Below, piece after piece: positions 4,705 to 10,914 of a stretch of 38,179 bases of DNA. Location of the stretch: positions 1-38,179 of the forward strand of contig NZ_POUA01000026.1 in NCBI RefSeq assembly GCF_003236385.1. Direction: 5' to 3'. Source of the stretch: Spongiactinospora gelatinilytica. GTDB taxonomy: Bacteria > Actinomycetota > Actinomycetes > Streptosporangiales > Streptosporangiaceae. The notes below the pieces were generated by a model. It was not told the DNA's origin. It saw nothing but the letters and a program-made list of their open reading frames with translations, and ran no database searches. The number at the start of each line of letters is the position of its first letter. The stretch's first letter is position 1. Position numbers and translations under genes: made by a program.

Positions 4705-5049
4705 AAGCCCCCGCCTCCCACCCGGACCCGCGACGGCGCGCCGGTGCCCTGGACTGAGGGCGAAGGAGCCCGCGAGGGTGCGCCGGTGCCCTGGACTGAG
4801 GAGTGAAGGAGCGAGGGACGAGCGGATGAGCGACGAGGGAAGCGCGCCGGTTATCAGCGCCCGAGCCGCGGCGCGTAGCGTTGCGAGTGGGGCGGTTTGT
4901 CCTGGGATGCGCTCACCGTGACCACGCACGGGCCCGGGCGCGGTCGTGTCCGGACCGACGAGCGATCGAGTGAGGAACGAACGAGGGAGCGAGGAGGGGA
5001 GGACGCGACCTTGAAGGCGCCCGGGCCCCGCGCGAGCGAAGCGAGCGCC
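4705..5049. other. Repeat-rich gap between leuD and the next gene
   Basis: No convincing gene is present. The gap holds a two-copy 22-bp direct repeat (4738-4801), a GA-rich tract (about 4801-4840), and copy A of a dispersed repeat (4909-5054). No clear intrinsic terminator for leuCD was found. Confidence 0.6.
4738..4801 (+). repeat. 22-bp direct repeat, two copies, 42-bp period
   Basis: The 22 bases at 4738-4759, beginning GCGCCGGTGCC and ending GGACTGAGG, recur without change at 4780-4801. The 20 bases between the copies are different. The function is unknown. Confidence 0.85.
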
Positions 5050-5054
5050 ATGAG
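4909..5054 (+). repeat. Dispersed intergenic repeat, copy A
   Basis: About 146 bp sharing long stretches with two other places in the window. The element starts with ACCACGCACGG, then has a conserved 32-base block (4931-4962), a purine-rich GAGC/GAACGA tract, then CCTTGAAGGCGCCCGGG (5009-5025), and ends GCGAGCGCCATGAG. The block 4931-4962 matches copy B at 30 of 32 positions. The 17-base CCTTGAAG motif is identical in all three copies. The last bases contain the ATG of the next gene. Confidence 0.8.
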
Positions 5055-7497: not shown

Positions 7498-8508
7498 ATG
7501 AGCAAAGCTGCCGTATTCGGGACCGGTTCGTGGGGCACCACGTTCGCGATGATCCTGTGCGCCGCCGGCACCCGGACGACCCTGTGGGGCCGGCGGGCCG
7601 AGATCGTCGAGGCGATCGACCGGGAGCATCGCAATCCCGACTACCTGCCGGGCGTGCCGCTCCCGAGCGAGCTGCGCGCCACCACCGATCCGGCGGCGGC
7701 TCTGGACGGCGCGGACTTCGTGGTGCTCGCCGTCCCCTCCCAGTCGTTGCGCGCGAACCTCGCCGAGTGGGCCCCGCTGATCGCGCCAGGCGCGGTGCTG
7801 GTGAGCCTGATGAAGGGCATCGAGCTGGGCACGGCCAAGCGGATGAGCGAGGTGATCAGGGAGGTCGCGGGCGTCCCGCAGGAACGGGTGGCGGTCGTCT
7901 CCGGGCCCAACCTGGCCATGGAGATCGCCCGGCGGCAGCCCGCCGCGACCGTGGTGGCCTGCACCGACGAGGCGGTGGCGCAGAGACTGCAGCAGGCGTG
8001 TCACGCGCCGCCGTGGTTTCGGCCCTACACCAACACCGACGTGGTCGGGGTGGAGGTGGGCGGGGCGGTCAAGAACGTCATCGCGCTCGCCGTGGGCGTG
8101 GCCACCGGCATGGGCATGGGCGACAACGTGCGGGCGATGATGATGACCAGGGGTTTGGCGGAGATTTCCCGGCTTGGTGCGGCTTTGGGGGCGGATCAGC
8201 ATACTTTCGCGGGTTTGGCGGGAATGGGGGACCTGGCCGCGACCTGTGCGTCACCATTGTCCAGGAACCGCACTTTCGGCGAGAATCTGGGCCGCGGGAT
8301 GACCCTGGCCGAGGTGACCGCGGCCACCAAGCAGACCGCCGAAGGTGTGAAGTCCTGTGAGTCCGTCCTTGAGCTGGCGAGGAAGCACGACGTGGAGATG
8401 CCGATCACCGAGGTGGTCGTCGGTGTCGTGCACGACGGCCTGGACCCCGGCGAGGCGGCGACGCTGCTGATGTCGCGCTCGCCCAAGCCCGAACGGTACG
8501 GAGTGTGA
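7498..8508 (+). CDS. gpsA: NAD(P)H-dependent glycerol-3-phosphate dehydrogenase
   Basis: GpsA (336 aa) reduces dihydroxyacetone phosphate to sn-glycerol-3-phosphate for phospholipid synthesis. The dinucleotide site [10 protein letters not shown] is at the N-terminus; [11 protein letters not shown], the catalytic-lysine segment [13 protein letters not shown] and the substrate loop [10 protein letters not shown] with SRNRTFG follow in order. The ATG at 7498 places the Rossmann motif at the usual distance. Codons at about 8150-8275 use far more third-position T and G than the rest of the gene, while the protein stays conserved there. It lies 20 bp after the acyltransferase gene and 9 bp before the PLP enzyme gene. 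Confidence 0.97.
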
Positions 8509-8517
8509 GTTCTTAGT

Positions 8518-9741
8518 GTGACTGCCTCACGACGCGCGCGCCGCAGACTCGGCGAGAACACCCGCTCGATCCACCTGCCCCGGCCGGAGACCCCCGGTCA
8601 GTCCACCTTCGGTCTGCCGGTGTGGCGGGCCGCGTCGTGGAACTTCCGAAACTCCGCGGAGTACGCCGACGTGCTCGGCGGCCAGGGCCCCGGCCACGCC
8701 CTCGGCCGCATCGACAACCCCACCACGTCCTCCTTCGCCGCCGCAGTGGCCTCGCTGGAGGGCGCCGCCGCGCCGGAGGACGTGGCCGGCCAGGCGTTCG
8801 CGTCCGGCATGGCGGCCGTCCAGGCCGTGTTCTTGACGTTCCTGCGCGCGGGCTCGCACGTACTGGCCCCCAGCCCCGTGTACGGCGGGACGTTCTCCCT
8901 GCTCACCAACGTGCTGAGCCGGTTCGGCGTGACCGCCGACTTCGTGGACTACGCCGACCTCGCCCGCGTCCGGGCCGCCGTGCGCCCCGGCACGAAGATC
9001 ATCTACGCCGAGACCATGGCCGACCCCACCATGGCCGTGGCCGACCTGCGCGGCCTCTACCGGATCGCGCGCGGCGCAGGGGCGCTCCTGGTCGTGGACT
9101 CCACGCTGGCCACCCCCGTCGTGTGCCGCCCGCTCGAACACGGCGCGGATCTCGTCCTGCACTCCGCCACCAGATACCTCGGCGGGCACGACGACTCCAC
9201 CGGCGGCGTGGTCGTCGGCCGGCCCGGCCTGATCCAGCGGTTACGCGAGGTGCGCATCGACACCGGCTGCTCGCTGTCCCCCGACGAGGCCTTCCTGCTG
9301 CGGCGCGGCATGGAGACCCTGCCGCTGCGGGTGCGCCGCATGTGCTCCACCGCGATGGTGTTCGCCGCCTCGGTCGCCAAGCACCCCGCCGTGCGCCGGG
9401 TGGACTACCCCGGGCTGCCCGACCACCCGGGCAACCTGCTCGCCAGGCAACTGTTCGACTCCGGCCCGGAGGGCACCCGGTACGGCGCCTGCGTCACGGT
9501 CACCCCCGCCGGCGGCTACGAGGCGGGGGCCGCCCTCGCCGACGGACTCCGGCTGGCCGGGATCGGTTCGGCGGTCGGCGGCACGCACACCAAGGCCGCG
9601 CACGTCGCCGCCACGGTCCGCCCGACCGGGAAAGAAGCGGGGGTCGACGTGGGCGCGGTGCGCTTCTCCGTCGGGCTGGAGGACGCCGAAGACCTGATCG
9701 CCGACGTGACCAGGGCACTCGATTCCCTTCGTTCACCCTGA
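8518..9741 (+). CDS. Cys/Met-metabolism PLP-enzyme family protein lacking the usual PLP lysine
   Basis: A 407-aa member of the cystathionine gamma-synthase/gamma-lyase family. SGMAAVQAVF, SPVYGGTFSLL, the PLP-pyridine Asp in VVDSTLATPVV and the C-terminal VRFSVGLEDAEDL are present. The active-site motif normally read as HSATKYLGGH is HSATRYLGGH here: residue 219 is Arg (AGA codon), where family members have the Schiff-base Lys. The usual YSR..NPT phosphate-site Tyr is also replaced (ALGRIDNPT). It may be a pseudoenzyme or a sequencing variant. The GTG start at 8518 is 9 bp after gpsA. It is probably not a normal lyase unless another lysine substitutes. Confidence 0.88.
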   Translation: MTASRRARRRLGENTRSIHLPRPETPGQSTFGLPVWRAASWNFRNSAEYADVLGGQGPGHALGRIDNPTTSSFAAAVASLEGAAAPEDVAGQAFASGMAAVQAVFLTFLRAGSHVLAPSPVYGGTFSLLTNVLSRFGVTADFVDYADLARVRAAVRPGTKIIYAETMADPTMAVADLRGLYRIARGAGALLVVDSTLATPVVCRPLEHGADLVLHSATRYLGGHDDSTGGVVVGRPGLIQRLREVRIDTGCSLSPDEAFLLRRGMETLPLRVRRMCSTAMVFAASVAKHPAVRRVDYPGLPDHPGNLLARQLFDSGPEGTRYGACVTVTPAGGYEAGAALADGLRLAGIGSAVGGTHTKAAHVAATVRPTGKEAGVDVGAVRFSVGLEDAEDLIADVTRALDSLRSP

Positions 9742-9802
9742 ACCCCGTAGATACCGGTAGATGTGGCCCGTGTCGGCCCGGAGAGAAACCCCGCTGGGAG
9801 GG

Positions 9803-9816
9803 TAGATTCGGGCATC
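9803..9816 (+). promoter_or_regulatory. -10 element next to the ddl start
   Basis: TAGATT (9803-9808) is eight bases before the ddl ATG at 9817. GGGAGGG (9797-9802 region) could instead act as a distant Shine-Dalgarno on a longer transcript, so leaderless use is only possible. Confidence 0.35.
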
Positions 9817-10914
9817 ATGAACGAGCAGCGTGAGCGCCGGCCGCGCGTCGCCGTCGTCTTCGGCGGGCGCAACTCCGAGCACGCGGTGTCACTCCTCGGA
9901 GCGGGCAGCGTGCTCTCGGTGATCGATCGCGACAAGTACGACGTCGTGCCGGTCGGCATCACCCAGGACGGGCGGTGGGTGCTCGCGTCGGGTGAGCAGC
10001 GGTACGCGATCGAGGCCACCGTCGATGAGTCCGGCCCCGCCCTCGCGCTGCCCACCGGAGAGGCGTCGCTGGTCGCGCTCTCGCCTGGGCGCATCCCCGA
10101 GGAGCTGGGCGCGGTCGATGTGGTGTTCCCGGTGCTGCACGGGCCGTTCGGAGAGGACGGCACGATCCAGGGCCTGCTGGAGATGGCCGGCGTGCGCTAC
10201 GTCGGGTCAGGGGTCCTGGCCAGCAGTGTCGGCATGGACAAGGAGTACATGAAGGCCGTGCTGGCCGCCGCAGGGCTGCCGATCGGCAGGTACGCCGTGG
10301 TCCGCGACCGCGACTGGCGGCTGGACCGCGAGCGGGTGCTGAAGGAGGTCCAGGGCCTCGGCTGGCCGGTCTTCGTCAAGCCCGCGCGGGCCGGGTCCAG
10401 CCAGGGCATCTCCAGGGCCACCGCGCCGGGCGAGCTGGCCGAGGCGATCGAGCTGGCCAGGGCGCACGACCCGAAGGTGCTCGTGGAGGCCGCGATCGAG
10501 GGCCGGGAGATCGAGTGCGCGGTGCTGGAGTCGCTGGACGACGCGCCGCCGGTGGCCGGCGTGCCCGGCGAGGTGCTGATCCGCGACGACCACGAGTTCT
10601 ACGACTTCACCGCCAAGTACACCGAGGGCCACATCGACCTCGACGTGCCCGCGCGGGTGCCGGCGGAGGTCACCGAGCGGCTGAAGTCCATGGCGGTGCG
10701 CGCCTTCGAGGCGCTGAGCTGCGAGGGGCTGGCGCGGGTCGACTTCTTCCACACGCCCGACGGCGGCATCGTGCTGAACGAGATCAACACGATGCCGGGG
10801 TTCACCGCGACGTCGGTCGCGCCGCAGCTCTGGGCGGCCAGCGGCCTGCCGTACCCCGGTCTGGTGGACCGGCTCATCCAGCTCGCCCTACGGCGGTCCG
10901 TCGGCCTGCGCTGA
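9817..10914 (+). CDS. ddl: D-alanine--D-alanine ligase
   Basis: Ddl (365 aa) is an ATP-grasp ligase that makes the D-Ala-D-Ala end of the peptidoglycan stem peptide in the cytoplasm. The N-terminal VVFGGRNSEHAVSLLGA, VLHGPFGEDGTIQGLLE, the ATP-binding FVKPARAGSSQGIS, and the metal/substrate loop VDFFHTPDGGIVLNEINTMPGFT are intact. A Tyr in the HEFYDFTAKYTEG loop fits ordinary D-Ala-D-Ala enzymes rather than D-Ala-D-Lac resistance ligases. The ATG at 9817 gives the normal N-terminus. It ends 12 bp before a convergent lipoprotein gene. Confidence 0.97.
   Translation: MNEQRERRPRVAVVFGGRNSEHAVSLLGAGSVLSVIDRDKYDVVPVGITQDGRWVLASGEQRYAIEATVDESGPALALPTGEASLVALSPGRIPEELGAVDVVFPVLHGPFGEDGTIQGLLEMAGVRYVGSGVLASSVGMDKEYMKAVLAAAGLPIGRYAVVRDRDWRLDRERVLKEVQGLGWPVFVKPARAGSSQGISRATAPGELAEAIELARAHDPKVLVEAAIEGREIECAVLESLDDAPPVAGVPGEVLIRDDHEFYDFTAKYTEGHIDLDVPARVPAEVTERLKSMAVRAFEALSCEGLARVDFFHTPDGGIVLNEINTMPGFTATSVAPQLWAASGLPYPGLVDRLIQLALRRSVGLR

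Follow-up and report, generated by a model that had tools for sequence, protein, structure and literature searches.

In the DNA analysed here, a stretch of 38,179 nucleotides from Spongiactinospora gelatinilytica (the window), the gene between gpsA and ddl encodes a PF01053-family protein in which the PLP-binding lysine is replaced by arginine, and the loss of this lysine has recurred many separate times in the orthologues of soil actinobacteria. We regard it as probable that this protein, here called X, is one of a set of recurrently evolved functional pseudoenzymes, with a second, non-catalytic role that would be older than the lysine losses.

A PF01053-family protein with arginine at the PLP lysine

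The positions referred to below are the following (MGL, methionine gamma-lyase).

7498 to 8508, forward strand: gpsA, upstream neighbour of X
8518 to 9741, forward strand: X, a member of the PF01053 family lacking the PLP lysine, 407 amino acids (open reading frame with a GTG start; profile match)
8644 to 8715, forward strand: arm with the YSR equivalent, residues 43-66 (MGL loop 52-62; sequence comparison)
8701 to 8709, forward strand: LGR replacing Y-S-R (MGL Tyr59, Arg61), residues 62-64 (alignment)
9022 to 9024, forward strand: Asp169, equivalent of MGL Asn161 (alignment)
9097 to 9099, forward strand: Asp194, equivalent of MGL Asp186 (kept in 34 of 34 lysine-less orthologues)
9172 to 9174, forward strand: codon AGA, Arg219, at the Schiff-base lysine position (MGL Lys211; reading and alignment)
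9457 to 9480, forward strand: DSGPEGTR, X-family insertion, residues 314-321 (orthologue alignment)
9661 to 9663, forward strand: Arg382, equivalent of MGL Arg375 (kept in 33 of 34 lysine-less orthologues)
9763 to 10914, forward strand: ddl, downstream neighbour of X (listed open reading frame from the GTG at 9763)

For ddl, the in-frame ATG at 9817, which is preceded by a purine-rich stretch, looks a likelier start than the GTG. Elsewhere in the window, at about 4735-5050 between leuCD-like genes and an HU-like gene, GCGCCGGTGCCCTGGACTGAG occurs twice, together with GAGCGA-type runs, as GC-rich repeats.

X matched PF01053 over nearly the whole profile (306.6 bits for a gathering score of 27; residues 15-401, profile positions 2-380 of 381), as a full-length member of this fold does. 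No NCBIfam cut-off was reached among the best 25 of 47 families, the best model giving 298.8 against a cut-off of 666. The AlphaFold2 model of X had a pLDDT of 89.8, and its closest folds were methionine gamma-lyases (Z about 52), which were also its best solved relatives (35-41% identity among the top-ranked MGL structures). Such a good predicted fold was to be expected and is weak evidence, because the input alignments included intact homologues.

The accessible text of PMC9087591 describes the roles of MGL Lys211, Tyr59, Arg61, Ser208 and Thr210 and of loop 52-62 in the PLP site. At the first of these positions, where the MGL, CGS, CGL and CBL members carry the Schiff-base lysine, X has Arg219, so that the motif HSATKYLGGH reads HSATRYLGGH, and the YSR loop of the catalytic members reads LGR, with Tyr changed to Leu and Arg kept. 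Both changes had been noticed in an earlier sequence-only reading and were borne out, the former by the reading frame and by Spongiactinospora rosea. The same reading held that the other landmarks were intact, which is true for the equivalents of MGL Tyr114, Asp186, Ser208, Thr210 and Arg375, all present in the window protein, but not for those of Asn161 (Asp169) and Ser340 (Ala352). We take MGL Asn161, Asp186, Ser340 and Arg375 to be sites with roles in MGL, matched in X by Asp169, Asp194, Ala352 and Arg382.

A sequencing error at Arg219, which had been raised as a possibility, is excluded by S. rosea, a separate assembly (L003 and L020 are one assembly), whose protein is 93% identical to X and also displays HSATRYLGGH, with the codon AGG. 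A third congener, Spongiactinospora sp. TRM90649 (L004/L037), carries lysine at 219, encoded by AAG, and HGR for YSR. Considering these two codons, the proposed one-base route from AAA to AGA is not likely, and AAG to AGG to AGA fits better.

Recurrent loss of the lysine among orthologues

Within the window's family, 160 of 341 genomes had a match to X (E <= 1e-100), and the loci of 120 of these 160 were covered. A class-wide search with an outer orthologue as query gave matches in 49 of 394 genomes (E <= 1e-95), 20 of them outside the family. The first comparison set comprised 103 orthologues, 99 from the window's family and four from outside it, and residue 219 was K in 76, T in 10, R in 8, G, P and A in two each, and H, S and Q in one each. 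Seven further, more diverged orthologues all lacked the lysine, bringing the total to 34 of 110. Alignment of the orthologues lying between gpsA and ddl, which the sequence-only reading had proposed, thus did not return lysine throughout, and its suggestion of a pseudoenzyme gained support well beyond one protein. The 30 loci taken from the class-wide search (seven in genomes already counted) all had K219, Y62, R64 and Y122, and with them the lysine-less share becomes 34 of 133. By comparison, all 77 background PF01053 homologues kept the PLP lysine; they came from two paralogue searches plus a pattern scan, and include many close relatives (Flavobacterium and similar).

None of the 103 orthologues had a stop codon within the X reading frame; the TGA flagged in each of the L170 and L172 matches sits just before the ATG taken as start. 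The order gpsA, X, ddl on a single strand was found at all 100 loci (of the 103) with both neighbours in reach. In the 27 lysine-less genomes of the first set the MetB-like paralogue had both its lysine and YSR (27 of 27 for each), so that the loss in X is explained neither by the quality of the assemblies nor by a general disappearance of PLP chemistry. A different chemistry using Arg219, also suggested in the sequence-only reading, is unlikely: eight different residues (T, R, G, A, P, S, H and Q) replace the lysine, which led us to reject an arginine-specific use. A migrated lysine was likewise rejected, since no lysine column is common to all the lysine-less sequences, the best being residue 288 with 26 of 34.

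On a tree of gpsA plus ddl (98 of the 103 sequences; L015, L016, L018, L019 and L162 were dropped because their flanking genes were missing or cut), the lysine state had to change 13 times, at least 10 of them forced by well-supported branches. The tree of X itself, built on the 103 sequences with the active-site columns removed, required 14 changes, again with at least 10 forced, and counting losses only on the species tree gave 13. Both are quick trees with SH-aLRT support only, they exclude the seven most diverged sequences, and the parsimony counts are compatible with a few regains of lysine.

Selection, possible decay and the residues kept

Clade omegas were estimated with GY and F3X4, pairwise omegas by likelihood, and a branch model was fitted on 58 taxa. 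In three lysine-less clades omega was 0.087, 0.100 and 0.054 for X, while ddl gave 0.069, 0.088 and 0.045, and gpsA 0.046, 0.022 and 0.036. In six lysine-bearing clades the omega of X ranged from 0.039 to 0.073. The branch model gave X an omega of 0.0485 on lysine branches, 0.102 on loss branches and 0.106 after loss; allowing two omegas rather than one gained 66.8 lnL, in keeping with a roughly twofold relaxation after loss, and forcing omega to 1 after loss was worse by 597 lnL. As controls, the corresponding values (lysine, loss and post-loss branches) were 0.045, 0.052 and 0.053 for gpsA, with a gain of 1.4 lnL for two parameters, and 0.054, 0.039 and 0.079 for ddl, which was therefore also raised after loss (gain of 13 lnL). 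When the arm and the PLP contacts were masked, X still displayed 0.0462 against 0.0864 after loss, so that more than the PLP site became freer. Between the window protein and that of S. rosea there were 14, 12 and 41 differences at first, second and third codon positions, and the omegas of this pair were 0.074 (X), 0.025 (gpsA) and 0.031 (ddl). An omega of 1 was rejected for X in the three lysine-less clades and in all lysine-less pairs (smallest LRT 15.6). On the basis of the clade, branch and pair values, lysine-less X is constrained, but less so than its lysine-bearing relatives, and it combines a lost motif with retained purifying selection as pseudoenzymes do.

This relaxation is also what would be seen if X were simply decaying, its use having been lost, with the lysine and the loop as early casualties, deletion as the next step, and frames staying open since stops are rare in GC-rich DNA. 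The match in only 160 of 341 family genomes is in line with such decay, and so is the sample that we took from the 181 family genomes with no match. All 30 genomes sampled had gpsA; in 29, no X or only a remnant of it was found in the gap between gpsA and ddl. In 28 of these, ddl followed gpsA and the window query detected no X, although closer queries disclosed a 25-residue remnant in one (L195); another (L191) still has the final 64 residues of X between the two genes; and in the thirtieth (L207) ddl was out of reach. These remnants, at 2521-2724 in L191 and 1366-1440 in L195 (minus strand of the locus), are C-terminal and are read as deletion scars, and the three other X copies examined from the genus of L191 are all lysine-less. 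Weak matches in L209, L212 and L213 were discounted because they lay outside the gpsA-ddl gap or had E values of 7e-4 to 0.007. X is thus dispensable in many lineages, and its deletion in relatives, together with the relaxed selection, counts against an essential role; the sequence-only reading had placed X in a core operon, of which the gene order holds but the core status does not. Since gpsA and ddl adjoin without X in relatives, it is also unlikely that X is retained to keep the operon readable.

In the seven most diverged sequences the arm is eroded or missing, and two of them lack about residues 25-68. These two, L246 (1489-2475, minus strand) and L250 (1450-2439, plus strand), are from the same genus and have open frames with most of the N-terminal arm gone, which also speaks for decay; L246 keeps Arg382, at which L250 has Leu, and the fold of L246 is still predicted (pLDDT 90.9). 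Against decay stand the rejection of omega 1 by all three approaches, the 172 of 407 sites that did not change on any loss or post-loss branch, and a lysine-less clade of seven species that keeps frames of 404-406 amino acids. We therefore consider decay unlikely as the explanation, and a functional pseudoenzyme the better one.

The changes that followed loss were concentrated around the cofactor site. Loop and PLP contacts underwent 86 changes on loss and post-loss branches and 76 on lysine branches, compared with 710 and 1294 at the remaining sites (odds ratio 2.06, p 1.3e-5); column 219 was omitted because the lysine branches are defined by having lysine, which would be circular. Residues 40-66 were similarly enriched (odds ratio 1.98, p 5.8e-8). 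Tyr62, Arg64, Thr218 and Ser216 were retained in 6, 18, 18 and 24 of the 34 lysine-less sequences, and in 77, 77, 77 and 76 of the 77 background ones. Tyr62 was not always lost before the lysine, as six lysine-less sequences keep it and four lysine-bearing ones have lost it, and on independent pairs no significant association with lysine loss was found for the loss of Tyr62, Arg64 or Tyr122, with no trend for Arg64. A compensating change of His357 to Arg, suggested by raw counts (18 of 27 lysine-less and 3 of 35 lysine-bearing sequences of Streptosporangiaceae proper), was not supported on independent pairs. Tyr122 was kept in all 41 outer lysine-bearing sequences and in 20 of the 35 from Streptosporangiaceae proper (lost in 15), and such loosening of the PLP site while the lysine remains is expected if the second role preceded the loss of lysine.

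Other parts of the cavity hardly changed. Asp194, Ser96, Gly97 and Glu165 were kept in 34 of 34 lysine-less sequences and Arg382 in 33, each of the five being present in all 76 lysine-bearing ones, so that they may be merely structural. The kept Asp194 and Arg382 suggest either a carboxylate-binding cavity or such a structural part. It might be argued from this cavity and the predicted intact fold that X is still an enzyme, employing PLP without a Schiff base to residue 219, or another cofactor, with Asp194 and Arg382, much as ColD-type dehydratases have His in place of the lysine. We find this very unlikely, as the eight kinds of replacement at 219 are still changing within clades, losses at the phosphate contacts Tyr62, Ser216 and Thr218 affect 28, 10 and 16 of the 34 sequences, and no lysine column is shared. 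Serine palmitoyltransferase provides another model, a hetero-oligomer of lysine-less and lysine-bearing halves, and the 28 of 28 genomes searched did contain other strong PF01053 members with which X could pair. However, a helper of this kind should keep the YSR loop for the phosphate of its partner, and Tyr62 is so often lost; neither is there a second copy of X, with one match (E <= 1e-100) per genome among the matches listed except for G128, which had two. We judge this arrangement extremely improbable.

Outside the cavity, residues G316, P317, E318, T320 and R321 of the insertion, as well as C203, R262, R273, T278, A284 and F383, were each present in 34 of 34 lysine-less sequences. All of them are rare in the background, where each of the 77 sequences has gaps at positions 316-318, and most of these residues are common in lysine-bearing orthologues too, 10-11 of 76 lacking part of the insertion. 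This C-domain insertion may be an interface.

A possible non-catalytic role and its history

The history that we propose for these functional pseudoenzymes would start from an ordinary PLP enzyme, since the outer lineages retain the PLP-site residues Tyr, Arg and Lys and are presumably active. A second, non-catalytic role would have been gained early in Streptosporangiaceae proper and an Actinomadura-like genus, after which catalysis would have become dispensable. The PLP site was then dismantled repeatedly. The order in which the phosphate loop, Lys219 and the phosphate cup were dismantled varies, and purifying selection persists on the fold, on part of the cavity (Ser96-Gly97, Glu165, Asp194 and Arg382) and on the family residues of the C-domain. 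X probably has a function for which catalysis is not required, and most likely, as we infer, would serve without PLP as an oligomeric binder or an allosteric partner, its target being either a protein or a carboxylate ligand bound through Arg382. GpsA and Ddl may be the first candidate partners to consider, and are named only because of the gene order. A more specific proposal, about which we are rather doubtful, is that X is a PLP-fold regulator coupling the supply of glycerol-3-phosphate (GpsA) to that of the cell wall (Ddl), a role that would predate the lysine losses, with bifunctional lysine-bearing relatives and catalysis shed some ten times or more.

With methionine gamma-lyase and cystathionine gamma-synthase (PF01053, fold type I) X shares the whole fold and the Asp186 and Arg375 equivalents, but it lacks the Schiff-base lysine, has LGR for YSR and scores far below the best NCBIfam cut-off. 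TSB-like, a protein of eudicots, belongs to fold type II. As presented in the accessible text of PMC12727527, it is a non-catalytic relative of a PLP enzyme that activates a partner enzyme, and is a paralogue beside an active enzyme, whereas X is an orthologue in single copy. For the fungal Dis3L2/Ssd1 pseudonucleases, the accessible text of PMC8097288 proposes a non-catalytic role that predates at least four independent active-site losses; this history is like that of X, although it concerns another fold in eukaryotes, and X a bacterial PLP site with at least 10 changes of state. Our searches of the open-licence PMC literature gave no report of a protein such as X.

The pseudoenzymes compared originated alongside an active copy or through a small number of events, while one bacterial locus, that of X, shows side by side versions that look active, are half-eroded, lack the lysine, have almost no arm or are deleted. 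For the 34 of 110 orthologues without the lysine, the label of cystathionine lyase, given by family match, is doubtful. Because these states coexist at one locus, both the hidden second function and the sequence of events are directly testable and, if the reading of X as a regulator is true, this locus would offer a natural series of unusual richness leading from a PLP enzyme to a pseudoenzyme.
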